64,000 bases of DNA, taken from Paenibacillus sp. JJ-223 (GTDB taxonomy: Bacteria; Bacillota; Bacilli; Paenibacillales; Paenibacillaceae). The translations under genes were made by a program, and so were the position numbers. Position 1 is the stretch's first letter, and each line of letters begins with the position of its first letter. The notes beneath the pieces were generated by a model, which saw nothing but the letters and a program-made list of their open reading frames with translations, was not told the origin of the DNA and did no database searches. Positions 1 to 14,466 of the stretch are shown piece after piece. The DNA lies in contig NZ_CAKMMP010000005.1 of assembly GCF_927798175.1 (NCBI RefSeq), positions 62,001 through 126,000 on the forward strand. Direction: 5' to 3'.

Positions 1-478
1 CTTGAACAAATACTTCGATGGGTCTGTTATAGTCGATGGGTTTGTAAATTATTCTATTATTCCACTTGTGCCGTATGTCTTGATCTCTATAATCATTATC
101 TTCAGTTTCAACCGACTTCATCACAAGCATAATTTCATTCATCGTACTTATAACACTTCGGCTATCCGTTTTGGTTATCGTCTTCTCGTTACATTGTTCT
201 AAATAATATTTCGCGAGGTGATCGGGAACTTCCTCAACAGCCAAATAAGCCTCCAAATTCTCTTTAAAGACTCCTGCCAGTTTACTGGCCTGATTCGTTC
301 TAATCCCAGTAACCGTTAAGCTTAATCTGGAACAATCATTCATAAACACATAATGTTTTCTGCCATATAACGTAAAAAAGTTCACATGCCAACTAAAGAA
401 AGAATCCGTATCTCCGATGGTTTCTGGTTTGACATTTAGATCTTTTAATGTTAATTGGGTTGCTTTGAATATAATCAT
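1..478 (-). CDS. DUF6933-like protein, C-terminus off the left edge
   Basis: Reading leftward, an ATG at 478-476 opens a frame that runs off the window edge for about 159 residues. It begins MIIFKATQLTLKDL and contains FSWHVNFFTLYGRKHYVF and later TKTDSRSVISTMNE. This arrangement resembles the DUF6933 family of unknown function (recalled by eye, not searched). The start codon overlaps the stop of the upstream nucleotidyltransferase as ATGA, so the two are probably translationally coupled and form one mobile cassette. The gene is AT-rich like the rest of the island and unlike the chromosome to the right. No catalytic residues can be assigned. Confidence 0.65.
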   Translation of the reverse strand, partial: MIIFKATQLTLKDLNVKPETIGDTDSFFSWHVNFFTLYGRKHYVFMNDCSRLSLTVTGIRTNQASKLAGVFKENLEAYLAVEEVPDHLAKYYLEQCNEKTITKTDSRSVISTMNEIMLVMKSVETEDNDYRDQDIRHKWNNRIIYKPIDYNRPIEVFVQ

Positions 479-879
479 GCACTAATCCCCCCTTTGTGCT
501 CTCTGCAGTATTCATTGTACCCTACTCCTATGACTGTTCCATGCAGATAAACTAAAGCCGCTGCGCCTACCACGGTATAACATTCAATTCCGGCCATATT
601 CTTTTCCACTTCTTGTGTTTTGTTATATAAAGTGGCTGTTGTAGGCCACGAGTCAATTGCTTCCTCTAATGATAAATATGGCTTAAGATCAATTCCGAAT
701 TTATCTTTGTACCATAAATGAACCCTTGCTTGATTTTTTACATCAACTTTAATGGGCAGCTTACAATATACTTCTTTACATTTATTTATTATTCGATCTT
801 CTTTTTCATAGGAAAGGTCAGTATCAAAATAAATAATATCAATGTCATCAATGCCGTATCCTAAAGGATTCCCTAACAA
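475..879 (-). CDS. Nucleotidyltransferase family protein (COG3575/DUF925-like), N-terminally truncated
   Basis: The product resembles the small nucleotidyltransferase-fold family with an Asp-rich core (IDDIDIIYFD near the N-terminus). The real activity of this family is unknown. The only in-frame start is TTG at 879, but recognisable family sequence (YYIGAGCIAQTVWNYL) continues upstream to about 943 with no start codon, and an in-frame TAA follows. The usual first 30 or so residues are absent, and the break coincides with the core-like GTTAAC of the adjacent attC-like repeat. The gene therefore looks clipped when it was captured as a cassette. Its stop overlaps the DUF6933 start. Function is doubtful; it may be a pseudogene. 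Confidence 0.6.
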   Translation of the reverse strand: MLGNPLGYGIDDIDIIYFDTDLSYEKEDRIINKCKEVYCKLPIKVDVKNQARVHLWYKDKFGIDLKPYLSLEEAIDSWPTTATLYNKTQEVEKNMAGIECYTVVGAAALVYLHGTVIGVGYNEYCREHKGGISA

Positions 880-924
880 GTAGTTCCAAACGGTCTGTGC
901 AATACAGCCAGCACCAATATAATA

Positions 925-986
925 TTCTGTTAACTCCGTTTTTCGAGTTTAAGGTACACAACGTAGATTCTATGTTATCGGATGTT
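925..986 (-). repeat. attC-like repeat A (short)
   Basis: Read leftward, this is the sequence just after the HD gene stop: CATCCGATAACATAG, then ATCTACG, then a short middle and GGAGTTAAC. The first arm matches the other repeats in this island (ATAAC followed by a CACG/TACG block). The central section is almost absent, so this is the shortest copy, about 60 bp. Confidence 0.6.
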
Positions 987-1004
987 CTTGCCTTCTTCGA
1001 ACGA

Positions 1005-1616
1005 CTAAACCAAGTCCTTCAATTCATTATAAGCGTCTCTAAGCCATGGATGAATAACTCTTAGGTTTTCTCGCTGTTTCCATAAAAAATGAATATATTC
1101 GAATGCTGCATGGTTCAACGAATCATCTAGCTTCTGCGTAATCTGATGTAAATATGGAGGTTCACCAGCTTGATCCCACTCTATCTTATCTGCAACAAAC
1201 AAAACCTTGTCTAAAATAGTTGAATTTTTCTTGAGTGTCGTGTGACATCCAACTGCATCAAGAACTTCCTGATCCTTAATGTTAAAAATATCTCTAGCCA
1301 TTTCTTTCGATATCTTCTGATGGATTATCATTGGAAAAGTCTCTTCTTCAGGCAGCACCTCAATACCCAGATCATAAGAAACTTGAATCCTTACATCATT
1401 AGAATATACCGCACTTATATCATGTAAATATCCAGCGATTTCGGCTGAATCCTTATCAGCATGATATCGATCAGCTATCTTTCTCGCTTCTTTGCCTACC
1501 CTGACACAATGTTCCGCAGTTTTGGGGCAGCCATTATCCACTAAAAAGTTATATATATCATCCTTGAGATTTCCCGACAAGGTATTTATAACAAGATTAT
1601 TATATACTGACTTCAT
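1005..1616 (-). CDS. HD-domain phosphohydrolase, YqeK-like
   Basis: A 203-residue HD-superfamily protein. HD-type metal ligands are visible: H36 (AEHCVRVG), the H65-D66 pair (GYLHDISA), H99, H125 (GCHTTL) and D144 (VADKIEWD). This order fits the YqeK type, which in characterised members hydrolyses diadenosine tetraphosphate; the substrate here is inferred only. The start was set at ATG 1616 because a strong purine-rich ribosome binding site (GGGGGGACTCC) lies directly upstream. The longer frame to 1733 reads through repeat B. The gene sits alone between repeats A and B, as a one-gene cassette, and is AT-rich. Confidence 0.8.
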   Translation of the reverse strand: MKSVYNNLVINTLSGNLKDDIYNFLVDNGCPKTAEHCVRVGKEARKIADRYHADKDSAEIAGYLHDISAVYSNDVRIQVSYDLGIEVLPEEETFPMIIHQKISKEMARDIFNIKDQEVLDAVGCHTTLKKNSTILDKVLFVADKIEWDQAGEPPYLHQITQKLDDSLNHAAFEYIHFLWKQRENLRVIHPWLRDAYNELKDLV

Positions 1617-1642
1617 GGAGTCCCCCCCTAAAGATTCATTGA

Positions 1643-2197
1643 TCATACCGTATGAATTTCCGATAACATTCCCGTATCTACGACGTCCGACGGAGTCGGG
1701 TATGTCCGGCTGTTCCGGCGTTTGTTGTGCCATATAAATCTTTGAACTACAATCCCTAATGTAATTGTCCCTAATACTTCGGTTTGTATCGTTCGTTTAA
1801 AATCGTTTTGATCTAATCCAATTAGTAGATAGAAAAATCGATGGTGTAGTAATTCAATAAGTGCTAGTGAATTTTCTATTGGTAATCCCTTATAGTCATT
1901 TAATTCTGCCCATAGATCTTCTCGATAGGTAGTTGCTAATGGGTTTTCTTCCGTTAGTCCTCTTTTGAATCGTAGATATGCGTTCATATCATTATCAGCT
2001 ATATGATGAATGATTTGTTTTATGGTCCAGCCATTCATTCGATATGGAGTAATTAGTGTGTAATCTTTACGTCCATTTAGCAATGCTTTTAGTTTTATTA
2101 TTAGTTCTGGAATTTGATGAATGAGATTACATAATTGTTCACCTGATAGATTCTTTTGGGGCTGAAAATGTCCAATGGGATATCTAATTGGATCCAT
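1643..2197 (-). CDS. DinB/YfiT-type putative metal-dependent hydrolase, C-terminus replaced by repeat
   Basis: The start is ATG 2197 (MDPIRYPIGHFQ), typical for YfiT/BstA-like four-helix DinB proteins. HIADND supplies the first expected metal-binding His. Family members end in a Trp-His segment with further His ligands. Here the family sequence stops after IWH at about residue 157, and the frame then reads through attC-like repeat B to an accidental stop at 1643. The last metal-binding His residues are therefore gone and about 28 residues of repeat-encoded tail replace them. The protein is probably non-functional. Longer upstream frames pass through repeat C and are not believed. Confidence 0.65.
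   Translation of the reverse strand: MDPIRYPIGHFQPQKNLSGEQLCNLIHQIPELIIKLKALLNGRKDYTLITPYRMNGWTIKQIIHHIADNDMNAYLRFKRGLTEENPLATTYREDLWAELNDYKGLPIENSLALIELLHHRFFYLLIGLDQNDFKRTIQTEVLGTITLGIVVQRFIWHNKRRNSRTYPTPSDVVDTGMLSEIHTV
1653..1733 (-). repeat. attC-like repeat B, missing its first arm
   Basis: Read leftward, this begins inside the DinB frame at CACAACAAACGCC, a block also found in the centre of repeat F. It ends at GAATGTTATCGGAAATTC, which closely matches the core next to the recombinase remnant (6880-6900). The first arm is missing, and the DinB gene is fused directly to the middle of the repeat. Confidence 0.65.
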
Positions 2198-2204
2198 TGA
2201 GTTT

Positions 2205-2325
2205 CTCTGCGATGCGGTTAGTCTGTGCAGGTGTGTCCTCCTGTTTCCTCTCCCTGCTATTCCCGTTCGGGCGACCGAGGAGCTCCCCATGCTCCGAAGC
2301 GTGGATATGATATTACAATACCTCC
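2205..2325 (-). repeat. attC-like repeat C (divergent)
   Basis: This lies between the Nudix stop and the DinB start. Read leftward it carries GTAATATCATATCCACGC, a degenerate first arm. On the plus strand it shares GACCGAGGAGC with repeat G at the same distance from that arm. The second arm near 2205-2225 is poorly conserved, so the boundary is approximate. Confidence 0.45.
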
Positions 2326-2337
2326 CTTGAGCCACAT

Positions 2338-2769
2338 TCAAAGTAATCCCTTTTTACCTTCATTAAAATACGTACTTTCATTTCCATGAATTAAGTTTTT
2401 AAATCCGCCTTTATAATAAGGTATCAATTCATCTGCCTGTTCTATGTCCAACCAAGCTATTTCTGAGATTTCATCTGGTCTAATTATTTGTTCTTTACCG
2501 CCTATTATTTCTGCCCTAAAAGTAATAAAAATGGCATGTTCATTTATGTTTTCAAATTTGCACTCGTTGATTGCCACAATTCCATAGACTTTAACTTCAA
2601 GTCCCGTTTCTTCTTTTACCTCGCGAATAGCAGCTTGATCTAATGTTTCATTTAATTCAACAGCTCCCCCAGGAAGAGACCAACTTGATCGACCAGAATT
2701 CTTAACTGCTAGAACTTTAGTTTTGGACTGGTCTGTTATTAGTGAGTACACTACATCGACTCGTTTCAT
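2338..2769 (-). CDS. Nudix hydrolase
   Basis: A 143-residue single-domain Nudix protein. The full Nudix box GX5EX7REUXEEXGU is present at about residues 35-57, with G35, E41, R49-E50 and the metal-binding E53-E54. Such enzymes hydrolyse nucleoside diphosphates linked to another group; the substrate cannot be told from sequence. ATG 2769 was chosen because AAGGG lies about 11 bases upstream and MKRVDVVYSL is a normal family N-terminus; ATG 2778 is possible but too close to that site. The gene is intact, AT-rich and flanked by repeats C and D, so it is a likely cassette. Confidence 0.85.
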   Translation of the reverse strand: MKRVDVVYSLITDQSKTKVLAVKNSGRSSWSLPGGAVELNETLDQAAIREVKEETGLEVKVYGIVAINECKFENINEHAIFITFRAEIIGGKEQIIRPDEISEIAWLDIEQADELIPYYKGGFKNLIHGNESTYFNEGKKGLL

Positions 2770-2803
2770 TGAGATCATATCCCTTCTACACTGCATATCT
2801 TAC

Positions 2804-2906
2804 ATATACCGTTCCTGTATTTACGATCTCAGCGAATGCTAAGGTGTTTGGCCCCTGCAGGACCAAGGGCTAATGCGCTGTTATGAATATTATGTTATGC
2901 GATGCC
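2804..2906 (-). repeat. attC-like repeat D
   Basis: Read leftward: GCATCGCATAACATAATATTC as first arm and GATCGTAAATACAGG then AACGGTATATG as second arm, about 103 bp in all. It follows the kinase fragment stop and precedes the Nudix gene. The preceding block TTTCGAAGAGGGC is shared with other copies. Confidence 0.6.
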
Positions 2907-2926
2907 TCTGCCCTCTTCGAAACATT

Positions 2927-3221
2927 TCAAAATTCCTTATTCTTATTCCAAGCATTAGAAAATTCTCTAACAGACTGATACCTTTTTTTGCTTGTCATCA
3001 TTAATTGCATTGCAAGCCACATAATAAAGTTTTTGGTTGGCTTCCCATTTCTCTTAGGATCGATCAAATTCTCCACCCAATAGCCCAAATGCAATGGCTC
3101 CCGTATTATAAACATTAGTTCGACTATCAATTTCTGCTCCTACTTGAAACTCCTCAGCAGACATGAATCGTGATGATATCCCCAAAGCCTCCCCATAATA
3201 TTGTAAAATGGTTTCCTTTGA
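2927..3221 (-). pseudogene. Fragment of a protein kinase-like gene (C-lobe only), disrupted
   Basis: Read leftward, SAEEFQVGAEIDSRTNVYNT, GAIAFGLLGGEF, EKWEANQKLYYVACNAINDD and RYQSVREFSNAW line up with the C-terminal lobe of Ser/Thr-kinase-like phosphotransferases. The order is activation-segment end, the D-x-x-x-NVYxxGA helix, then the final helix. The copy has an in-frame TAA after GEFDRS and a frameshift at a run of A residues before RYQSV. It starts abruptly at the core-like GTTATC of repeat E and has no N-lobe or catalytic loop. It is a decayed, truncated cassette passenger. Two short ORFs covering it are parts of the same relic. Confidence 0.7.
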
Positions 3222-3324
3222 TAACTTAAGCCGGGGCGTGTATTGTCTGAATAAACTTCTACGTCTAACTTCCGACAATCAAGGGCCGTATGCCTCGCAG
3301 CGTAGATGCATTGTTATATGATTG
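3216..3324 (-). repeat. attC-like repeat E, second arm incomplete
   Basis: Read leftward: CATATAACAATGCATCTACG as first arm, a middle with CAGACAATACACGCCCCGG (compare repeat F), then TTAAGTTATCAAAGG. The second inner arm expected before the GTTATC core is missing. The kinase fragment begins directly at the core. Confidence 0.6.
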
Positions 3325-3339
3325 GACAGGCCTCCTGAA

Positions 3340-3831
3340 CTACTTACTATCCCTATTTCTATTTTTGATACTTTCTTGCCATCTTTCTATTAACTTGTCG
3401 TAGCTCAAGTACCAACTTTTTTTAATTTCAAAATTAAAATCATCAAATATTATAATGTAATTATTTCGGTACTGTTTATTTAATTGTTTCACATCAAAGA
3501 CTATGCAGTTCTCCTCCGATTCAATAATCTCTTCATTCAGACAACTTAGATATTCTTCTTTTGTCGGCATTCTTATAAATTCTGTAGGAATAAATCTACT
3601 ACAATTTATATATGAAACTCCTTTAAAACAAACTATCAATTCGTCATAATATATACTTTGAGAGCCTGTTAATACTAAAGTATCACCCTTGAATTCACTC
3701 ATAATAAAATGATCAATATTAGTGTTTTTAATAAGTTCTGAAAGATATCTGATTTTAGATTCTATCTTTAAATCACTGCAAAGTATGGTTATTAACTCGT
3801 TGAAATAAACAATTCTATCTTCTTTATTCAC
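3340..3831 (-). CDS. Hypothetical protein (cassette gene)
   Basis: A 163-residue protein that I do not recognise. It is acidic and AT-rich, soluble by composition, with no membrane segment or signal peptide. Its C-terminal half (CIVFDVKQL, then NNYIIIFDDFNFEIKKSWY) suggests alternating beta strands. The start is GTG 3831; an AAAGGAG lies about 16 bases upstream, which is rather far, so the start is uncertain. It occupies the interval between repeats E and F alone. Promoterless single genes between such repeats are typical of cassettes. Defence or stress roles are common for cassette passengers but nothing here shows one. Confidence 0.65.
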   Translation of the reverse strand: MNKEDRIVYFNELITILCSDLKIESKIRYLSELIKNTNIDHFIMSEFKGDTLVLTGSQSIYYDELIVCFKGVSYINCSRFIPTEFIRMPTKEEYLSCLNEEIIESEENCIVFDVKQLNKQYRNNYIIIFDDFNFEIKKSWYLSYDKLIERWQESIKNRNRDSK

Positions 3832-3873
3832 TTTGGGTGATAATTCTCCTTTCAGATTTCATTACTGTCCTTT

Positions 3874-4025
3874 CTCATAATGTTCTTTTATTTACGAAAC
3901 GCCCCAGCTTTAGATAGCTCTTATCTTAAGCTGGGGCGTTTGTTGTCTGAGTCTCTTCCATGATTATACATCTGGCAACCAAGGGGCGGTAGCCTCGAAC
4001 CGTGAATACTATGTTATAGGATGTA
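3874..4025 (-). repeat. attC-like repeat F (long, strong internal stem)
   Basis: Read leftward: CATCCTATAACATAGTATTC then CACG as first arm. The middle holds AAACGCCCCAGCTT, a loop, and its complement AAGCTGGGGCGTTT. The second arm is CGTAAATAAAAGAACATTATG. The loop of the inner stem (plus strand, roughly 3911-3931) is the same TTAGATAGCTCTTATCTTAA as in repeat I. It is the best-paired copy and could also act as a transcript hairpin. Confidence 0.7.
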
Positions 4026-4045
4026 CCCGACTTCTTGAACATCTA

Positions 4046-4519
4046 TCAAAATGTCTTATAATAAATGTTTTTTAAATATTTTTGATTTCCATAACGAATC
4101 TCTTTTGGATAGTCTACGCTGCATATGTCCAATTTCAGTAAATCATCATTACTCTCTTTTATTTTGCTTTTGATTTCCGCCCTTGAGTGAATACTCCAGA
4201 TTTTATCTCTTATCTGCCTTCCAAAATTAACTTCACAACGAACTCCTAATTTCACCATATTATACTGATCGGTAAAGTCTTGAAACAAATCTATTAATAT
4301 AAAACTTTCCCCATCATTTTTATTTAAAAATACAAAGACATCTCCTTTTCCAGCCCTACATGTTCCTTTGCCATAAGATAAATATTGGTTATATAATTCC
4401 GCTAAATCATAATTTATATTAAACGTTTTCATCAATTCTTCTAGACTGGATGCTTCATCTACATCATCTATCAAATCAAAAAATGATAAATAAAAAGAAT
4501 ATTCAATATATTCCTTCAT
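4046..4519 (-). CDS. Hypothetical protein (cassette gene)
   Basis: A 157-residue protein of unknown function. The start at ATG 4519 is well supported by GAGGAG seven bases upstream. The N-terminal third is rich in aromatic and acidic residues (MKEYIEYSFYLSFFDLIDD). The middle has a beta-rich stretch (GDVFVFLNKNDGESFILIDLF) and the C-terminus is basic. There is no signal peptide. It may belong to a small immunity-like or SMI1-like group, but that is a guess from composition only. It is the sole gene between repeats F and G and is AT-rich like its neighbours. Confidence 0.65.
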   Translation of the reverse strand: MKEYIEYSFYLSFFDLIDDVDEASSLEELMKTFNINYDLAELYNQYLSYGKGTCRAGKGDVFVFLNKNDGESFILIDLFQDFTDQYNMVKLGVRCEVNFGRQIRDKIWSIHSRAEIKSKIKESNDDLLKLDICSVDYPKEIRYGNQKYLKNIYYKTF

Positions 4520-4563
4520 AGCTTACTCCTCTTCGATTTATTCAAAATGTTTTTTCGGACATT

Positions 4564-4758
4564 TCCTATAACGTTGTTTGTTCACGAGCCCGAAAGGCTT
4601 AAGCTGCCCATCAATCAAGCACAGCGATTGATTCTTGCCGGGCGGCTCCACCACTTAGCCTTGCAGGGCTGTCCGGCTGAATCTACTTCTTGGCTTCCCA
4701 ACTTCTGCCGGACCGAGGAGCGAATGCGACGATGCGTGAACATGTTGTTAGATAATGA
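4564..4758 (-). repeat. attC-like repeat G (longest)
   Basis: Read leftward: TCTAACAACATGTTCACG as first arm and CGTGAACAAACAACGTTATAG as second arm. The outer blocks CGTGAACA and TGTTCACG are perfect complements. TCTAAC and GTTATA sit at the ends in the positions of integron R'' and R' boxes. On the plus strand the outer end reads GTTAGAT, which fits the integron core GTTRRRY. The central part of about 150 bp is GC-rich. Confidence 0.75.
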
Positions 4759-4792
4759 TTCCTCTTTTTCGAGATTACTTCCAAATTGCCCT

Positions 4793-5236
4793 TCACATGT
4801 TTATAATAAATCCTGTTTTCTTTCCTTTAACAAATCCTGTTCTTTCATAAAAATTATGTACTTCATCTCTCTGAGATCCCGTCATTAGCATCAGTTTATA
4901 ACAATTCATTTCTTGGCCAATTTTTTTGGCCTTTTCTATAGCCATCTGACCAAAACCTTGTCTCCTAAAATCCTTATGTGTTATTACATTCTCGATTAAT
5001 CCGTACGGTCTTGCATTCCTTGTAAGATTTTTAATGATTACAAGTACACAAGATGCAACAATTATACCATCATGTTCGACAACTATTATGTTCATGTTCT
5101 TATCATCTAAAATTTCATTCCAGTAATTAGACAATTCTTGACCTCTAATCAGTTCTGGATCATCTGGTTGCAGGAACTTATAAAGTAATAAAAGATTTTC
5201 TAATTCATCAACATGGATTAATCTAACTTCAGTCAC
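4793..5236 (-). CDS. GNAT family N-acetyltransferase
   Basis: A GNAT-fold acyltransferase of about 147 residues. The acetyl-CoA loop is visible as the variant RRQGFG motif in [19 protein letters not shown] (motif A, R/Q-x-x-G-x-G/A), followed by motif B ending in NFYERTGF. The substrate is unknown. GTG 5236 (reading [12 protein letters not shown]) was chosen because AGGTG lies seven bases upstream and family members begin near this point. A longer frame from GTG 5278 starts inside the GTTAGGTG core of repeat H and is less likely. The gene is intact and is the only gene between repeats G and H. Confidence 0.8.
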
Positions 5237-5274
5237 TGCAATGCACCTGCTTTCAAATTTGGTTTTAGGCAGTT

Positions 5275-5433
5275 TCACCTAACGTTTCCGTGTTCACGAC
5301 GTCCCACCACCTTAAGGACCCGTAGGATCCGGCCGCGGTGCGGATGTGTCCCGGCAACAACTTCCTTGACTTTATCTTCCGGGAATCGAGATGGCTTGAC
5401 TGTCGATACGTGAACACATTGTTATATGATGTA
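5275..5433 (-). repeat. attC-like repeat H (closest to canonical)
   Basis: Read leftward: ATATAACAATGTGTTCACG as first arm and CGTGAACACGGAAACGTTAGGT as second arm. The terminal GTTAGGT fits the integron core consensus GTTRRRY exactly. GTGTTCACG and CGTGAACAC are perfect complements. The GC-rich centre is about 110 bp. Confidence 0.75.
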
Positions 5434-5465
5434 TAGACCCTTTTTCGAAACTCCCGGAAATCAAT

Positions 5466-5998
5466 TTACATTTTTTTTCTCACATGATAAAGAACATGTT
5501 TTTCTAAAGGATTATTCTTTTCAACTTTTGGATGATGGAATGTATTAATATAACTCATGCAAACTTGATCATTACTCTTTTTGAGGGTTCATTAATATCA
5601 GCTGTAAAACAATATACTTCCTCAAACCCCAAGTTGTTAAAGCCATATTGCAAACATGCTGTAGCACCTTCAGTTGCATATCCGTAACCCCACGCATCTT
5701 TTTTGAGTCTCTAACCAATTTCGATACATGGAGTAAAACTGGCTTCAAATGTTGCTCTGTGAAATCCAATAAACCCAATGAAGTCATCATTTCCCTTTAC
5801 TTCGACAGCATACAATCCAAAGCCAGTTTCCTTAAATTCCGATTCAATTAATTTATAAAAGTCTTTTGTTTCTTCAGTTGATAAGGTCTTAGGAAAATAC
5901 TTCATTACTTCTTTATCTGCATTAAGAAGACTAAATGGATCTAGTCGGTTTCTCTCCAATCACGAAAACGTAACCTCAGCGTTTCAAAATAGATCATA
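5466..5998 (-). pseudogene. GNAT N-acetyltransferase, broken by three lesions
   Basis: Read leftward from ATG 5998 (MIYFETLRLRFRDW), with GGAG nine bases upstream, this is a RimJ/RimL-like acetyltransferase. It carries a frameshift after RETD, an in-frame TAG where EIG-W-RLKKDAWGYGYATEGA would need Trp, and a second frameshift after RVMIKF. After the last shift the frame resumes as MSYINTFHHPKVEKN and ends VRKKM at TAA 5466. Two ORFs (5711-5959 and 5572-5790) are pieces of it. Repair of all three sites gives a full-length family member. Repeats H and I flank it. Confidence 0.8.
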
Positions 5999-6120
5999 TC
6001 ACTCATCTCCAATTTAAGTGATTGGTTGTTCTGCTTTAATAGTCTGTTAAATCAATAAAGAGGTATATGCTATACCGAGAGATAATGATTTGTATATGAT
6101 TTTATCCATCTTGCGCTGAT

Positions 6121-6278
6121 TTCCCTATAACGTTTTTGTGTTCCTGACGTCGTTTCCCCTTAGATAGCTCTTATCTTAAGGAAATCGATGTGTCTGTCTG
6201 AATCTGCTTCAATGAAAAATTCCTCAGGCAGACCGGGCGACGACAGTCGAGAAGTTGGAACACTTTGTTATCGGATGT
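6121..6278 (-). repeat. attC-like repeat I
   Basis: Read leftward: CATCCGATAACAAAGTGTTCC as first arm and AGGAACACAAAAACGTTATA as second arm. GTGTTCC pairs with GGAACAC. The centre contains TTAAGATAAGAGCTATCTAA, shared with repeat F. It follows the GrpB stop by about 20 bases, the same spacing as in the other copies. Confidence 0.75.
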
Positions 6279-6298
6279 CTTCGTCTTCCTGAAATACT

Positions 6299-6844
6299 CT
6301 ACAAAACATCTTTGTACTCATTCATTATCCTCGTAACAAATTCTGTCTTTCCTTCAGTATAGGCTTTGCGATTGTTTCTGAATTTACTTGACAGTTGGAT
6401 CTTCAAATTTGTGTACTCAGATACCAATAAGGGATACTTTCTTAATATGTCTCGAAACATGATATGTCTTTTTAGTTCATTACTTTCTCTATTGCATACG
6501 TATAGATGATGTTCGTGCTTCACATAGCCTTCACTACTGTAAGGTACATAAACTTCCTTTCTTGCAAATGCCTCTCTGTTCTTAATTCCTAAATCACCTT
6601 CGTGTACATATCCCAGTTCGTCTAACCTCTTGATTACCCCTGGTAGGTACTCCATAGATTCAATTACTACATCAATATCAATGATTGGCTTGGCTGCAAG
6701 ATTCGGTACCGCTGTACTTCCAACATGCTCAATTCGTAATGCTAGACCACTAAGTTTATTGGATAAAATTGATTCTATTATATTGAATGCTTTTGGCCAT
6801 TCTTCATTATATTCTTCTATAATTACTGGTTTTTGATTCTTCAT
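6299..6844 (-). CDS. GrpB family protein (UPF0157)
   Basis: A 181-residue protein with the nucleotidyltransferase-like signature of the GrpB/UPF0157 family: EHVGSTAVP at 39-47 and KPIIDIDVVI at 52-61, followed by a basic C-terminal half. Family members are thought to have a nucleotidyltransferase fold, and GrpB domains occur fused to CoaE; the reaction is unknown. ATG 6844 was chosen for the AAGGGG eight bases upstream. The frame to 6928 reads through the core-like site. It is the first gene after the recombinase remnant, so in integron terms it is the first cassette. It is intact. Confidence 0.85.
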   Translation of the reverse strand: MKNQKPVIIEEYNEEWPKAFNIIESILSNKLSGLALRIEHVGSTAVPNLAAKPIIDIDVVIESMEYLPGVIKRLDELGYVHEGDLGIKNREAFARKEVYVPYSSEGYVKHEHHLYVCNRESNELKRHIMFRDILRKYPLLVSEYTNLKIQLSSKFRNNRKAYTEGKTEFVTRIMNEYKDVL

Positions 6845-6879
6845 CGAATTCCCCTTGAGTTTATTTGATTTATATTTAC

Positions 6880-6900
6880 GAATATTTCCGATAACATCTA
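6880..6900 (-). other. attI-like core next to recombinase remnant
   Basis: Read leftward, the sequence GATGTTATCGGAAATATTCG is nearly the same as the end of repeat B (GTTATCGGAAATTC). It lies between the end of the recombinase remnant and the first cassette gene, with no matching first arm. That is the position and asymmetry expected of an integron attI site. Confidence 0.5.
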
Positions 6901-6945
6901 ATTGACATACTTCGTCACTACCACTCATTCCATCTATGATCTGAA

Positions 6946-7345
6946 TTACGTATATGATAACTCATGTTGTGACATTTGCGAAGAATAATTTGGTGAAAAA
7001 AGGAAATTTAGTTCAGCAATCAATTCCCCCTGTCCATACAATCTTCCAGACTCTGAATACCTGAATATTTTTCGTACTAAACATATGTATATCGCTGGAT
7101 TGTTCGCTCCACTCGTATGACCAAGCAGCTCCTGAATGTAGCACAGGTCTGTCCCGTTTACCAGCAAATCAGTGGTAAAGGGATGCCCTTAGGCGCATGA
7201 ACGCTAACCTTTTTCACAATTCCAGCGCGTTGTCTGCCTTTGCAAAAACCTTCTGCATGGTCAACTCGGTAAGATCGATCAGAAGATTGCACCGGAAACA
7301 GCCAACGATATGGTCGATATTTAGCGATATCTCCACCATTCTGAA
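6946..7345 (-). pseudogene. Tyrosine recombinase (integrase), C-terminal half, frameshifted
   Basis: Read leftward, KYRPYRWLFP, then RAGIVKKVSVH, a broken LRH segment, TTDLLVNGTDL, YIQELLGHTS and IYICLVRK reproduce the second half of a XerCD/integron-type catalytic domain. The His-x-x-Arg box is shifted by two extra bases, giving stops in each frame. The final GH and the nucleophile Tyr (IY) are present. The core-binding domain and the first catalytic Arg are absent; the copy ends at about 7345 against a terminator. It points the same way as the cassettes, unlike classical integrons. Whether it is a true IntI cannot be decided because the region of the IntI-specific insertion is lost. Confidence 0.8.
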
Positions 7346-7348
7346 AAA

Positions 7349-7404
7349 CAAAAAAAGGAAGGCCCTTCTTCATCCCCAATAGGGAATCCAATGACCTTCC
7401 GATG
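7349..7404 (-). terminator. Probable terminator after the radical SAM gene
   Basis: Read leftward: GGAAGGTC, an inner ATTCCC/GGGGAT hairpin, then GGCCTTCC followed by seven T. It would stop leftward transcripts from the radical SAM gene before they enter the cassette island. Confidence 0.6.
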
Positions 7405-7443
7405 TTGAATGAAACTATTTGATGTTGTAAAAGACAGCACGGA

Positions 7444-7509
7444 ACGCGGCTTGTGCAATGCAAGCCGCGTCGGGGTGAGGCGCTGCGCGCGATTCGGGCA
7501 GCACCTCAC
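7444..7509. other. Two GC-rich stem-loops
   Basis: The first is a perfect 10-bp stem, ACGCGGCTTG/CAAGCCGCGT, with a 7-base loop (7444-7470). The second pairs GTGAGGCGCTGC with GCAGCACCTCAC (7475-7509), 11 of 12 as Watson-Crick. Neither has a T-run. They lie just past the stop of the radical SAM gene and may protect or pause its transcript. Confidence 0.6.
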
Positions 7510-7562
7510 GAGGGATGCACCGCGTCAATGATCTCGCGGTGCCCTCCTCAGGCCGCTGCGCC

Positions 7563-9569
7563 CTACATGGCAGCGGCTTCTTCTCCCAGCGGCAGCATGT
7601 AATACTGCGCCTGCTGCCCTTCATGCTGCTGGTACACCACGACCAGCAGCGTCCGGCCTTTCGCGGCAAGCGGGCTGGCGCCAGCAAGCACCCGCTCAAG
7701 CCGGAACGGAAGCACGTCCAGTACGGCGTGCTTCTGCAGCTCTTTTTCGCCGAGTCCCAGATCGGCGAAAGAGCGTGCGCCCATGACCGTCTGTGCGGTC
7801 ATGGCCGAGGTCATCGGCAGCGCACGCGAAGCGCTGCCGTCCCCTCCGTCCGCCGCTCCATCCCCGGCGGACACAAGCTCGCTGCCGTTCACACCCGCCG
7901 CATCCGCGGCAGTGTCTTCCCCGGCAGCAGCCGGACTGGCCGCAGCGGCAGGCGCACTCGTGCCGCTGCTTTCCAGCCATGCCGTGCCTGCGGCGCCGGC
8001 AATGCGCGGCAAACGAACGTCTTCCGGACGTTCAGCCAGCATTTTCATATAACCCGCCCACTGATCCTTCTCCAGCGCATCGTCCCACCAGATTTTGCGC
8101 GGTTTGTATTTGTGGCCAAGGAAATAGTCCAGCTTCATCAGGCCAAGCACGACATCCATATGGGGCGTGTTCCGCGACTCCAGGAAGCTGTACAATCGGG
8201 TGAACAAATCCTCCAACTGATGGCCGATCTTCTGCCAGCCCTGACCTTCCCAGTAGTCCCCGAACGCCTGGAAGAAATCGAACGGCGAATCGAATTCCTG
8301 CTCCATCAAATACTTCAACGTATGGTCCATCCGGTGTGCGTTCCAGTATTTCTCCAGCACGTCCTCCAGACGCTTCAAACGTACGATGTCGCTGAACGGC
8401 AGCACATGGCTGCCCAGAATTTCGTACGGCGCGTGATCCATATACGTGTAGTTGTACTTTTCCGCATCGAGACGCAGTCCGGTACCGCGCAGCATTTTCA
8501 GAAAGCCGAGCTGAAGCTCCTCCGGTCCCAGCGCAAACACGTCGTTAAACGTTTTGCGGAACGTATTGTAATCCTCTTCCGGCAGTCCTGCGATGAGATC
8601 CAAATGCTGGTCGATCTTGCCGCTGGCCTTGACCTTGTTGACCGTGCGGCTCAGCTTCGCAAAGTTCTGGCGGCGTTTCACCAGTTCGTTCGTCGGGTCA
8701 TTCGTCGACTGTACGCCGATTTCGAACCGGAAAATGCCCGGCGGCGCATGCTCTGCCAAATAATCCAGCACCTCGGGACGCATAATGTCCGCCGTGATTT
8801 CGAACTGGAACACCGTGCCCTGATGGTTCTCGATCAGGAATTTGAACATCTCCATCGCATAATCGCGCTTGATGTTGAACGTGCGGTCCACGAACTTGAT
8901 CAGCTTCGCGCCCTTTTCGATCAAATACAGAATATCCGCCTTCGTCCGCTCGATATCGTAATACCGCACGCCGACCTCGATGCTCGACAAACAGAACTGG
9001 CAGCTGAACGGACAGCCCCGGCTCGTCTCAAAATAAACCACCCGTTTCCCCAAATGCGGAATATCCTCGTCAAACCGGTGCGGCGACGGCAGATCGTTCA
9101 GGTCTGCCTTCGGGCGCCCCGGCATCACGATGACTTCTTCTCCTTTGCGATACGCCACGCCATAAACGAAATGATACTTCTGCGTCGTCGAAATTTCGGT
9201 CAGCAGCTGATGGAACGTCTCTTCTCCTTCGCCCATGACGATGAAATCGACGTTCTGGATGCGGTTCATCCAATATTCCGTGTCATACGATACCTCAGGA
9301 CCGCCGAGCACGATTTTCACTTCAGGCATAACCTTTTTCAAAATATCGATAACCTTGATCGTCTCCTCGATATTCCAGATGTAACACGAAAACCCGATCA
9401 CATCCGCACCGCGCTGGTACAGATCGGACACGATGTTCATGACCGGGTCCTTGATCGTATACTCGGCCAGTTCGATATCAAAATCCTTCTCGCTATACGC
9501 CTTCAGACAGCGAATCGCCAGCGAGGTATGGATATACTTTGCATTTAACGTCGAAAGAATAACCTTCAT
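7563..9569 (-). CDS. B12-binding domain radical SAM protein (DUF4080-type)
   Basis: 668 residues. An N-terminal cobalamin-binding-like Rossmann domain (about 1-130, including GADVIGFSCYIW and VLGGPEVS) is followed by a radical SAM barrel with C186-x3-C190-x2-C193 (GCPFSCQFC) for the 4Fe-4S cluster. The C-terminal region resembles DUF4080. Such enzymes use SAM, often with cobalamin, for methylation or rearrangement; the substrate is unknown. Residues about 535-585 form an Ala/Gly/Ser-rich low-complexity insert that looks like a flexible linker before a short folded tail. ATG 9569 has AAAGG about nine bases upstream. It is monocistronic. The GC-rich composition marks the return to chromosomal background. 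Confidence 0.85.
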   Translation of the reverse strand: MKVILSTLNAKYIHTSLAIRCLKAYSEKDFDIELAEYTIKDPVMNIVSDLYQRGADVIGFSCYIWNIEETIKVIDILKKVMPEVKIVLGGPEVSYDTEYWMNRIQNVDFIVMGEGEETFHQLLTEISTTQKYHFVYGVAYRKGEEVIVMPGRPKADLNDLPSPHRFDEDIPHLGKRVVYFETSRGCPFSCQFCLSSIEVGVRYYDIERTKADILYLIEKGAKLIKFVDRTFNIKRDYAMEMFKFLIENHQGTVFQFEITADIMRPEVLDYLAEHAPPGIFRFEIGVQSTNDPTNELVKRRQNFAKLSRTVNKVKASGKIDQHLDLIAGLPEEDYNTFRKTFNDVFALGPEELQLGFLKMLRGTGLRLDAEKYNYTYMDHAPYEILGSHVLPFSDIVRLKRLEDVLEKYWNAHRMDHTLKYLMEQEFDSPFDFFQAFGDYWEGQGWQKIGHQLEDLFTRLYSFLESRNTPHMDVVLGLMKLDYFLGHKYKPRKIWWDDALEKDQWAGYMKMLAERPEDVRLPRIAGAAGTAWLESSGTSAPAAAASPAAAGEDTAADAAGVNGSELVSAGDGAADGGDGSASRALPMTSAMTAQTVMGARSFADLGLGEKELQKHAVLDVLPFRLERVLAGASPLAAKGRTLLVVVYQQHEGQQAQYYMLPLGEEAAAM

Positions 9570-10020
9570 GCTTCACAACCTTTGCCTGGATCACCAGACC
9601 CTATTTTTCATTGCCAAAAGGAAAAGATTATCCGCCATTTTGCCTCAGATTCGCTCATTTCCAAGCCTTGCTTTACCATTCTTCAATCATCATTTTTCAA
9701 ATCATTCATCAATCATCATTCATTCCACATATCACGGACATTTCGCCATTTCGTCCACCAAACAGTGGACACTATTTCCAAAAAGACATCCACTCGCCCG
9801 GCCCTTCAAACCGCTATATCTGGGCAAACAACCACTTTACCCATCTACATGTTGTGCTCCTTGGAAACAGCTCGCTCCACTCCCGAATGTCCGCCTTCTG
9901 AAAAGACAATCCAACTCAGTTTGTCCACTCTCAAAAGACATTCCGTGCACCCGGCGGCTAGGTCACCCCGTACTCAGGTTTGCTCCACGTTCCGACGTCC
10001 TTTTCCCATCGAAATCATAC
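9570..10020. other. Non-coding stretch
   Basis: No gene is supported. Plus-strand ORFs here have Ser/His/Pro-rich translations, no ribosome binding site and no recognisable domain. AAAAGACA-type motifs recur near 9779, 9900 and 9933 but without clear structure. Confidence 0.5.
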
Positions 10021-10100
10021 TGATCCAACTCCGAACTAATTCGAGCTAATCAAACCTAATCCGAAAACACCCGAACTTATCCGATCCGATCTAAACTTAT
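10021..10100. repeat. Imperfect 10-bp tandem repeat, about eight units
   Basis: The sequence divides into consecutive decamers such as CCGAACTAAT, TCGAGCTAAT, CAAACCTAAT, CCGAACTTAT, CCGATCCGAT and CTAAACTTAT. Most end in TAAT or TTAT. The period is near one DNA helical turn, so it could be a bent-DNA or protein-phasing site. It abuts the MITE-like element. Confidence 0.55.
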
Positions 10101-10103
10101 AAC

Positions 10104-10331
10104 TATAGAAACCGCATTAATCAATCACACAAGGCCACTGCGAGTGCAGTACCATCTTCCGATCGCTGTTATCCCAGATTTTTTGTTTCCCCTTTTCTAA
10201 GGGGACAATCCGGTGATAAGCCTATGCTTCCGATGCAGCTTTCTTTCAGAATGCTTTTAAGCGAACGCTTCGCTTCTCCAGATTGGTTCTGCCTCTCCGT
10301 TAACGTGTGTATGTTTTTTGCGGTTTATATA
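10104..10331. mobile_element. MITE-like element, copy 1
   Basis: About 228 bp closely matching 35276-35502. The ends are inverted: TATAGAAACCGCA at the left and TGCGGTTTATATA at the right. The interior shares CACTGCGAGTGCAGTACCAT, CCTATGCTTCCGA, CAGCTTTCTTTCAGA and GATTGGTTCTGCCTCTCCG with copy 2. There is no ORF that looks real inside it. It lies in intergenic DNA upstream of recQ's 3' end. Confidence 0.8.
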
Positions 10332-10460
10332 CAGGTAATCTTATCCGTTGCAACTCTAACCACAGCAACCGATAAACCAAATCGTCATGTTCGACCGTAC
10401 CCTCATTTATATCCAAATGTCCCAACTGATTTCCCCTAGTCCATCCGTCGATCCGACCTC

Positions 10461-12341
10461 TCATTCATATTCGTAAAAGAGATCGTCATCCAATCCCGCA
10501 TCTTCGCCCTTCTGCTTTTGGAAAAATTCAAGAAACGGCTGTCCGTACTTGCGGTACTTCACCTCGCCGACCCCTTTGACGGTCAGCATGTCGCGTTCCG
10601 TCGCAGGGCAGACCACGCTCATCTCGCGCAGCGTGGCATCGTTGAAAATAATGTACGAAGGTACATGCTCCTTCGCCGCCAGATCGCGCCGGATCAGGCG
10701 CAGCTGCTCAAAGATCGTTTCGTTGACCGCCGAAGGCATCGCATCGCGGCCGCGACGGCCGCCGTAGTTCGTGCCCGAGGCGGTGGCCGCCGTTTTGCGC
10801 ACGACCCGCTGCATCACTTCGCGCTGGCCTTTCAGCACCTCTACCGCCAAGGGCTGCAGCCGCACGACCGGATACTGTCCCTCGGACAGCATCAGATAAC
10901 CTTCCGATACCATAACGTTGATGATCTCGGCAATCTCCCGTTCCGTACGGTTGCCCATCACGCCATAGGTCGGCAGGGAGTCGAAGCCGTAATCCAGCAC
11001 TTTTTTCGCTCGTGATCCCTTAAGCACGGACGCCACCAGCGATACACCGTACCGCTCGCGCATGCGGTGAATGCAGCTGAAGATTTTTTGCGCGTCGATC
11101 GTCATGTCCACCAGTTCGCGGTCATCCGTGCAGGAGCTGCACATGCCGCACGGCTTGTCCTCATGCACTTCGCCGAAATAATCGAGCTGCGCGCTGCGCA
11201 GGCATCGCGTCGTATAACAATAATCGACCATCTGCTGCAGCTTGCGGTAATCGTTCGCCTTGCGGTCGCCCTCCATCGGGTTCTGCTCGATCAGGAATTT
11301 CTGCGTAATGATGTCCTGCGCCCCGAACAGCAAAATGCACTGGCTCGGCTCGCCGTCCCTGCCTGCGCGCCCGGCTTCCTGCACGTATGCTTCCATGTTT
11401 TTCGGCATATTGTAATGCAGCACGTAACGCACGTTGGACTTGTCGATCCCCATGCCGAAGGCATTTGTCGCGACCATCACCCGGATGTCGTCGTACAAAA
11501 ACTGCTCCTGACTCTCGGCCCGTTCCTCGTCCGTCATGCCTGCATGGTAACGCCCTGCAGCAAGTCCCGCATGCAGCAGGCGTTGATGCAGATCGTCGAC
11601 GTCCTTGCGGGTCGCGGCATACACGATGCCCGGCTCGTTCGCATGCTCGCGGGCATAGTTCAGGACGAAGTCCTTTTTGTTCTCGCCGCGCAGCACGCTG
11701 AACGCCAGATTGTCGCGCCCGAGTCCGGTCACGAACGTCTGCGGCTCATGCAATTGCAGCAGCCGCAGAATGTCCTGCATGACCTCGGGCGTCGCCGTTG
11801 CGGTAAACGCGGCCACCACCGGCCGCTCCGGCAAACTATCCACGAACGGCGCTACCGCCAGGTAGCTCGTCCGGAAATCATGGCCCCACTGCGATACGCA
11901 GTGCGCCTCATCCACGGCCACGCAGGAGATGGGCAGCTGCGCCATCTCGTCGCGGAACCAATCCAGCTCCAATCGCTCCGGCGCGACGTAGAGCAGCTTA
12001 AGCTCCCCGCGCTGCGCCGCGCGGATGCGGTCGTTCACCTCGCGACCGCTCAGCGTGCTGTTGATGTATGCCGCGGCAATGCCCGCCGTCGTCAGCGCAT
12101 CGACCTGGTCCTTCATCAACGAGATCAGCGGGGAGACCACCAGGGTCAGTCCCGGGTACAAGAGGGCAGGGATCTGATAACAGATCGACTTTCCGCCCCC
12201 GGTCGGCATGATGCCCAGCGTGTCCGCCTGTTCAAGCAGGCTCGCCACAATCTTTTTTTGACCCTCACGGAAATCGGGGTATCCATAATATTTTTGCAGA
12301 AGACCCTGCGCTTCTTCCAAGGTCGCCATGTGCACGCTCAT
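10461..12341 (-). CDS. recQ: ATP-dependent DNA helicase RecQ
   Basis: 626 residues with the complete RecQ architecture: Walker A MPTGGGKS (45-52), DEAH box VAVDEAHC (141-148), motif [12 protein letters not shown] (near 320), the zinc-binding Cys cluster (CYTTRC to CGMCSSC, about 375-405), winged helix, and a C-terminal HRDC domain (about 520-600). RecQ unwinds DNA 3'-to-5' in recombination and fork repair. ATG 12341 has GGAG eight bases upstream. Length is slightly above the usual 590-610 because of a short acidic tail. It appears monocistronic. Confidence 0.95.
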
Positions 12342-13362: not shown

Positions 13363-14466
13363 TCAAGGCTTTCCGTTCTGGCTTTGGCTCAGTATGGCTT
13401 CCAGTTTGGCTCTGTTGCTCAGCAAACCGGGGTCATCGGGTACATACTCCAACGCCTTGCCGTTATGCAGCAAAGCCTGCCCGATGTGTCCCGTATGGGC
13501 GTAACAAAACGATAAGCCCGCATGAGGCAGCCAGGTCCGGCAAGCAACGTGCACCGGGCGCAGCCCCGGATCGCGACTGCCGACGTCCAGCGCCTGCATA
13601 TACCAGTAGATGGCGGCAATCCACTCCTGCCTGTCTTGGAAACAAGCGGCGATGGCGCAGCAGAAATCGGGATGCGGCAGGTCATACTGAAACGACTGCA
13701 GCAGATTGCCCAGCTTCATTCCGGGATCGCCCAGCCGCCCGTAGCAATCCGCCAGCCGGGCGCAGGCGATGAGCCGGTCTTCGGCATGCCCTTCCGGCCG
13801 CCTTAACAGCTCGGCGTACGCCCGCGCCGCAGCCGCGTAACGCCGGCGGTCATAACATTCGCCTGCATAATAATACAGCAGGCGTCCATGCCCTATCCCT
13901 TTTTCGGCGACCCATTTGCGCAGAATGCGCACGTTTCGCGCCGAATGATGGTCCGCTTCGCGGCGATGCGTGACGGCAATGTCTGCCGTCACCGTGCCTT
14001 GCGGCGGGAAAGTCAACTGCTCGTGCAGCCGCCCATGCCAGCGGCAGCCTGCGTCGCGCCTGACCAGGCGCAGGCGGCGGTCCGATACGAGCGGACCGCC
14101 ATCCGGGCCCTCGGCCAGCGTATAGTTCAAGATCACGCCTGCCGTCTCCCCCCCTGACGGCAGGCGTTCCTTCAAGGCGAGCAGCTTTGCCCGTTCCGCG
14201 GGCAGGAGCACATCGTCCGCATCCAGCCACAGGATATACTCCTGCGTGGCTCGGGCGAACGAAGCATTGCGTGCCGCGGCAAAATCGTCCTCCCAGGCAA
14301 ACGCATAGATCCGGTCGGTATACCGCGCGGCCACTTCCGTCGTGCGATCGGATGATCCGGTATCCACGATGACGATCTCGTCGGCGATGCCATTCACCGA
14401 ATCGAGACAACGCGCCAGCGTTCGTTCCTCGTTCTTCACAATCATGCACAGGCTGATGGTGATCAC
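13363..14466 (-). CDS. Family 2 glycosyltransferase with C-terminal TPR-like region
   Basis: 367 residues. The GT-A fold begins at the N-terminus (ISLCMIVKNEE), with DTGSSD at 35-40 and the metal-binding LDADD at 81-85. The C-terminal half (about 195-355) shows helical pairs typical of tetratricopeptide repeats (YYYAGECYDRRRYAAAARAY, HAGLSFCYAHTGHIGQALLH). SunS-like and other Bacillales glycosyltransferases share this layout. It transfers a sugar from a nucleotide donor; the acceptor is unknown. GTG 14466 was chosen for the AAGGAGC seven bases upstream. It is the last gene of the glycan cluster. Confidence 0.88.
   Translation of the reverse strand: MITISLCMIVKNEERTLARCLDSVNGIADEIVIVDTGSSDRTTEVAARYTDRIYAFAWEDDFAAARNASFARATQEYILWLDADDVLLPAERAKLLALKERLPSGGETAGVILNYTLAEGPDGGPLVSDRRLRLVRRDAGCRWHGRLHEQLTFPPQGTVTADIAVTHRREADHHSARNVRILRKWVAEKGIGHGRLLYYYAGECYDRRRYAAAARAYAELLRRPEGHAEDRLIACARLADCYGRLGDPGMKLGNLLQSFQYDLPHPDFCCAIAACFQDRQEWIAAIYWYMQALDVGSRDPGLRPVHVACRTWLPHAGLSFCYAHTGHIGQALLHNGKALEYVPDDPGLLSNRAKLEAILSQSQNGKP

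Follow-up and report, generated by a model that had tools for sequence, protein, structure and literature searches.

A decayed integron-like cassette platform in a Paenibacillus genome, probably served by a tyrosine recombinase without the IntI-specific domain

The left end of a 64,000-nucleotide stretch of Paenibacillus sp. JJ-223 (hereafter the window; contig NZ_CAKMMP010000005.1, here C5, positions 62001–126000, in a 6.95-Mb genome of 46 contigs termed G000) very probably holds, at positions 925–7345, a decayed integron-like cassette platform, whose cassettes are likely to have been gained and lost at a G^TT crossover by a tyrosine recombinase lacking I2, the additional domain specific to the integron integrase IntI. 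Several lines of evidence point to this: the anatomy of the attC-like sites, an attI conserved up to G^TT, a correspondence between the arms of consecutive sites (the R''/R' rule), covarying stems, shared gene-plus-attC units, and array differences within a species. The window platform is regarded as a relic because its recombinase gene is broken and only five of its nine sites keep both arms. As the system would work like an integron and its enzyme fails the test that defines IntI, it is best described as a variant of the integron that is not IntI-based. A first-pass annotation of the window had proposed a relic integron-like cassette array in a Bacillales chromosome, and that proposal is supported.

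The genes at 2–6928 are all on the minus strand and mostly small, and repeated two-armed elements lie at the 3' ends of the small genes. Nine palindromes, A to I, had been counted in the first-pass annotation; in our own reading both arms are present in only five (D, F, G, H and I), with A reduced to its left arm, B to its right arm, and C and E degenerate. A strict arm pattern finds 61 sites in 21 loci, with the consensus TCnnnTAACATAATATTCACG...CGTGAATACAGGAACGTTAnnnGA. The R' core in these arrays is GTTAnnnGA and not the GTTRRRY first proposed, although repeat H does end in GTTAGGTGA (5275–5283) and the left core of repeat G does mirror GTTAGAT, as had been noticed.

Thirty sites form a class of 100 nucleotides that aligns without gaps and fits a stem with three inner hairpins. 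This structure, which was drawn from the same 30-site alignment that served for the covariation test, pairs 97.2% of the alignment cells, and 10 of its 27 pairs are altered on both sides. In four of five covariation measures none of 500 shuffles scored as high, and slid versions of the structure scored far lower; the fifth measure, which takes in further pair types, was no higher than the shuffles. Folding of individual sites gave z scores of −3 or lower for five of seven strands, the two falling short being window site H (z −1.0, no better than its shuffles) and one site of locus L007. A covariance model (R1) built for these sites identifies four of the window sites, namely D, F, G and H, at E ≤ 1. 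An Rfam scan of window positions 1–12000 at E ≤ 1 gave no match, and Rfam family RF03000 has no match anywhere in the genome.

Circular cassettes recombining at G^TT would make each R'' mirror the R' with which its own cassette starts, not the adjoining R' of the same site. In the first 24 loci, counting arms above set scores, the variable triplet agrees in 69 of 117 consecutive R''/R' pairs, compared with 6 of 126 within one site; shuffled partners agree in a mean of 6.1 and a maximum of 15 of the 117. When L043, a partial repeat of L006 from the same species, is excluded, the figures become 69 of 111, compared with 5 of 119 within a site and 5.9 by shuffling. The rule extends to other genera of the family, where 12 loci chosen for strong attC hits show agreement in 106 of 146 pairs (13 of 150 within a site; shuffle mean 10.3, maximum 21). 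In the window itself, the pairs attI–I, G–F and B–A agree in all nine bases and H–G in seven of nine; in cassette 1 the R'' reads TCCGATAAC, exactly the attI junction (GTTATCGGA) in reverse complement, and the R'' of site A is the exact mirror of the R' of site B. Exchange of circular cassettes would simply explain this pattern.

The one-directional cassettes start at an attI-like site beside the broken tyrosine recombinase gene. Both elements had been reported in the first-pass annotation and both are present. The attI-like site occupies 6887–6913 on the minus strand, with the G^TT crossover between 6895 and 6894, and its core (6892–6913) differs by three mismatches from the conserved attI of relatives, GAAGTACATARATTAGATGTTA. 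The decayed C-terminal remnant of an I2-less integrase lies at 7026–7328, also on the minus strand (tblastn, 40% identity over 112 aligned columns, query residues 270–370, E 2e-13); frame 6946–7167 in this region has no Pfam family. A terminator-like hairpin, read by eye at 7345–7400 in the interval between integrase and flanking gene, recurs upstream of the second platform of this genome. The flanking gene, at 7563–9569 on the minus strand, marks the chromosomal place of the platform and is presumably of the radical-SAM type.

Intact counterparts of the remnant are found in relatives. All of 75 genomes of the genus gave some match to the recombinase, many being Xer-like at near 40% identity, and more than 30 places at 85–100% identity are among the matches listed. 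An open recombinase frame of at least 369 residues, commonly 369–371 from the start codon, is present in 16 of 30 relatives' loci. At 13 of these 16 loci the integrase directly follows a homologue of window gene 7563–9569 (tblastn with its last 120 residues), so the window would contain the site that a sedentary platform has long occupied. The integrase gene is transcribed towards the cassettes, and attI lies 123–125 nucleotides past its stop codon in 30 of 32 rows, in which intact and broken integrases are taken together with repeats removed. Conservation extends up to ...TTAGAT/GTTA, where the G^TT crossover falls (one row reads TAAGAT), and the sequence beyond mostly differs from row to row. 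The two exceptions are L020, which the script missed, and L057, whose junction is at 218 nucleotides with a different sequence. Integron integrases are commonly, though not universally, under LexA/SOS control; the best matches to the LexA box CGAACNNNNGTTCG upstream of the 16 integrases have three or four mismatches. The genome of the window belongs to Paenibacillus: loci L015 and L022 of the same genus encode, letter for letter, the proteins P0002 and P0003, which carry the names of Paenibacillus pabuli and P. xylanivorans. By eye, L003 (the second platform of G000), L011 and L015 have a common upstream sequence unlike that of the window, which suggests a second conserved platform place.

In G000 the array extends up to 62 kb to the left of the window. 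Three attI-like sites, all on the minus strand, lie at C5:10966, 22414 and 68892, the last being that of the window, and about 40 kb to the left the contig carries more arrays, along with a C-terminal fragment of this recombinase that is 147 residues long. An intact copy was not found in the 46 contigs, an assembly that may be incomplete; the window array is therefore probably fixed, unless another recombinase serves it.

One protein of the family was scanned against profile models of the two candidate relatives. With the IntI model TIGR02249 it scores 209.3 bits in two pieces, below the cut-off of 265, and with NF040815, a XerA-like model named site-specific tyrosine recombinase/integron integrase, it passes with 225.1 bits (cut-off 220). 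Its best solved-structure match is IntI; the alignment to IntI4 (2a3v) jumps from query residue 268 to 286 and from chain residue 179 to 239. The recombinase is thus without about 41 residues, comprising I2, and has an extra N-terminal domain. The same gap recurs in the array integrases among the matches listed, in which the TIGR02249 match ends near model position 165–180 and restarts near 230. The distance between the catalytic motifs GKGxKxR and HxxRH is 66–67 residues in all 14 family rows, 106–107 in 21 of the 25 IntI rows in which it was measurable, and 70–76 in three of six Xer rows. In an AlphaFold model (mean predicted local distance difference test score 79, predicted template modelling score 0.47) no helix is predicted at the I2 position. 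The N-terminal region of about 95 residues weakly resembles HARP, XPB and UvsW domains, and a Foldseek search gave no significant match for this domain. By its defining domain, as judged from sequence, the recombinase is not IntI.

Its position relative to IntI and Xer was assessed in a tree of 45 rows, in which IntI forms one clade (support 100/99), a branch separates IntI and the I2-less integrases together from five Xers (100/99), and the 18 I2-less integrases are set apart by a branch with support 90/89 (not starred). The five Xers come from this genus and have long branches, for which the program warns that long branches may meet; the tree lacks archaeal and proteobacterial Xer, Treponema IntI and archaeal IntI, and most of the 80 IntI reference loci are near copies of IntI1. 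INTI_L133, INTI_L148, INTI_L155, OTHER_L083 and XER_L166 were left out beforehand, and L173 gave no frame. A first tree of 40 rows likewise placed IntI and the I2-less rows, including L082, on one side of a branch (100/98), and in a test that excluded L082 p was 0.23; a trimmed tree, which lost 11 rows (five of them Xers) to the motif, was not used. On this narrow and long-branched sample, the recombinase appears to group beside IntI and not with the five sampled Xers.

Comparison of 111 cassettes yields 13 pairs with a gene common over at least 60% of its length, five of which are between two genomes of the same species. In seven of the eight between-species pairs (the exception is L007/L053) the downstream attC is better conserved than the upstream one, as would be expected for a gene and its attC moving as one unit. 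Randomly paired attC bodies have a mean identity of 0.61 and a 95% point of 0.88, which three of the eight downstream values exceed. One cassette of 592–593 bp, present in three species at 95.6–96.6% identity, accounts for three of these eight. In five pairs the homology ends no more than about 20 nucleotides from each of the two predicted cassette ends; it runs on into shared neighbours in L039/L051 and stops inside the cassette in L039/L056 and L007/L053.

Arrays also differ within the species. Genome G010 carries a single small gene in about 0.6 kb at the place of about 4.65 kb of window cassettes (2239–6891). The first-pass annotation had named one gene order in all relatives as a sign of a plain repeat family, and relatives do not show this. 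The outer flanks of this difference are 98.3–99.0% identical, and the recombinase remnant only 83%. One event in this comparison weighs against cassette exchange. A 580-bp cassette is present in G000 and absent from G010, and an exact empty-site test between the two genomes failed at R'; the exchange point falls within the left arm of attC, and the event resembles homologous recombination of one attC copy with another.

The last event, together with the similarity of sites within and between arrays, is what would be expected of a plain family of palindromic repeats at gene ends, of the repetitive extragenic palindrome (REP) or miniature inverted-repeat transposable element (MITE) type, shuffled by homologous recombination. 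Such a family is very improbable here. The scattering of single repeats over unrelated intergenic places, named in the first-pass annotation as a sign of it, does not occur, 18 of the 19 covariance-model hits in G000 being on one strand within a single 67-kb stretch (C5:0.7–67.4 kb); and the R''/R' rule, the association of attI with the integrase, and the cassettes common to different species with ends near G^TT in five of eight pairs also argue against it. The one hit away from the arrays is at C7:294962–295059 (E 1.2e-18). Another account takes the arrays for CALINs (clusters of attC sites lacking integron-integrases), built by a canonical IntI since lost, beside an unrelated Xer-like enzyme. 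The profile scores of the integrases, above the XerA-like cut-off and below that of IntI, would fit this, as would the presence of canonical IntI over the cut-off in 2 of 398 sampled genomes of the phylum. This account is nevertheless improbable, if less so than a plain repeat family, given that none of the 75 genomes of the genus has a protein over the IntI cut-off, that attI keeps its distance to the recombinase stop codon, that an intact recombinase with an array occurs in another genus and versions of 45% identity in another class (see below), and that the recombinase groups with IntI and not with the Xers used. The CALIN label may fit the present state of G000; the relatives' platforms keep intact integrase frames.

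A further possibility overlaps with the cassette platform proposed here and concerns only the substrate: the enzyme would recombine double-stranded palindromic sites in the classical way, and the attC fold would be selected for some other reason. I2 is reported to be the basis of single-strand recombination (PMC7790495) and is absent here, and one 100-nucleotide site folded on both strands is about equally stable on either (−18.8 and −18.7 kcal/mol). Against this stand the three inner hairpins, which covary and are unneeded by a double-strand site, and the asymmetric spacer (5 versus 8 nucleotides, read from the alignment). We consider double-strand recombination unlikely, with appreciably more weight than either of the two accounts above. 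For the cassette platform, we infer that cassettes are exchanged by the I2-less recombinase, the gene of which adjoins attI in the arrays examined; its substrate would be attC folded as a single strand, which the N-terminal domain (about 95 residues) would grip in place of the I2 helix.

Such arrays are not confined to this strain. Covariance-model hits for attC are present in 74 of the 75 genomes of the genus and, at E ≤ 0.001, in 253 of 394 genomes of the family, in 16 of 19 genera, some of the weaker hits being possibly due to chance. In six genomes of one or two contigs each (G040, G037, G048, G052, G002 and G003), a second group of hits lies about 0.9 Mb from the main one, near 2.5–2.64 Mb. 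The intact recombinase with an array outside the genus is at locus L073, where tandem near-identical units of 287 bp (four differences) lie directly behind the integrase, at about 13758–14402. In another Bacillota class, loci L176 and L177, from genomes G431 and G507, have I2-less integrases of 45% identity with attC-like sites of their own, the arms of which are unlike the Paenibacillaceae arms. Agreement extends to all ten bases in three R''/R' pairs of L177, leaving out two armless right-core pattern hits; L176 has no pair suited to the comparison, and no such repeats were found at L178, a third I2-less locus of that class. A Chryseobacterium plasmid (NZ_CP041688.1; L082/L168) encodes a related I2-less integrase of 38% identity, matching from residue 13 of the Paenibacillus enzyme. 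Behind it come small genes on the same strand, together with several palindromic repeats, nearly identical and about 190–209 nucleotides long, in which GTTA and then variable bases form the end; the R''/R' rule is not evident there.

The window features, all on the minus strand, are as follows from attI leftwards, with gene families taken from Pfam. Cassette 1 (6131–6894) carries a GrpB-family gene (6299–6844) and is followed by attC-like site I (6123–6275), which has both arms and gives no hit with model R1 at E ≤ 1. Cassette 2 (5283–6130) contains a broken small gene (frames 5572–5959) and leads to site H (5275–5429, model E 4.9e-6); cassette 3 (4572–5282), with a GNAT acetyltransferase gene (4793–5278), leads to site G (4564–4755, E 1.3e-8). 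Cassette 4 (3881–4571) and cassette 5 (3340–3831) carry genes of 157 (4046–4519) and 163 amino acids, the two genes at 2–6928 without a Pfam family; between them is site F (3873–4021, E 1.2e-7), in which the core G of R' reads A. Site E (3249–3321) has a clear left arm and a degenerate right arm, and attC-like site D (2799–2902) has a model E value of 4.4e-10. Further left are a cassette with a NUDIX gene (2338–2796) and the degenerate site C (2211–2320), with a weak left arm. A frame with a DinB_2 match (1643–2341) reaches into sites B and C and must be longer than the actual gene; site B (1654–1727) has a clear right arm and has lost its left arm. A cassette with an HD-domain gene (1005–1616; frame 1005–1733), site A (962–982) and an NTP_transf_6 gene (475–879), truncated in the profile (positions 28–109 of 159), complete the series; DUF6933 is the remaining family among the genes at 2–6928. 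The GC content is 36.1% at 925–6913 and 54.2% at 7563–64000, consistent with the earlier description of AT-rich passengers in a GC-rich chromosome.

The platform resembles the chromosomal integrons of Vibrio, Xanthomonas and others that have IntI, in its integrase, attI and one-directional small cassettes, in attC arms of the R''–L''...L'–R' type with a core beginning GTT, and in cassettes made of a gene and its downstream attC. It differs from them in the integrase, in the R' core GTTAnnnGA, in the 100-nucleotide attC class with three inner hairpins, and in the placing of attI 3' of an integrase gene that reads towards the cassettes. Integrase genes of Treponema integrons are likewise read towards attI and cassettes, but are described as integron integrases (PMC3607928), whereas those of Paenibacillus fail the IntI cut-off. 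Xer recombinases (XerA, XerC and XerD) share a catalytic part without the IntI insert; the Paenibacillus enzyme differs from these in its extra N-terminal domain, its link to attI and arrays, and its tree position beside IntI.

In the same phylum, an integron of Limnochorda pilosa and Firmicutes CALINs have been described, the former as the only complete Firmicutes integron in a survey that calls integrons extremely rare there (PMC9024848). The rarity assumed in the first-pass annotation does not hold for arrays of the present kind, given their frequency in the family. The program of that survey requires an IntI-specific-domain profile, according to PMC9668308, and integrases have been selected in studies by the additional domain (PMC9668308, PMC2426708); surveys of this design would miss an I2-less recombinase. 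Incomplete conservation of the insertion has been noted for an integron-like subgroup in one classification (PMC8138268). No report of Paenibacillus cassette arrays is among the matches listed in a literature search of titles and abstract openings, a scope within which most subscription papers did not fall.

A wider proposal, to which we assign slightly less than an even chance, is that these systems form a second deep integron class, sister to IntI, which captures cassettes without I2 by means of a HARP/XPB/UvsW-like N-terminal grip, fills the Paenibacillaceae, reaches the class of L176 and L177 and perhaps Bacteroidota (L082), and is hidden by I2-based searches. According to PMC7790495, cassettes cannot be captured without I2, no other protein has this domain, and the absence of intermediate forms makes it hard to understand how integron integrases originated. 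A natural cassette system with an I2-less recombinase beside IntI would make that question directly testable. Surveys based on the IntI domain would undercount cassette platforms, and a large Gram-positive family would carry such platforms widely, in a phylum in which integrons are reported to be extremely rare.

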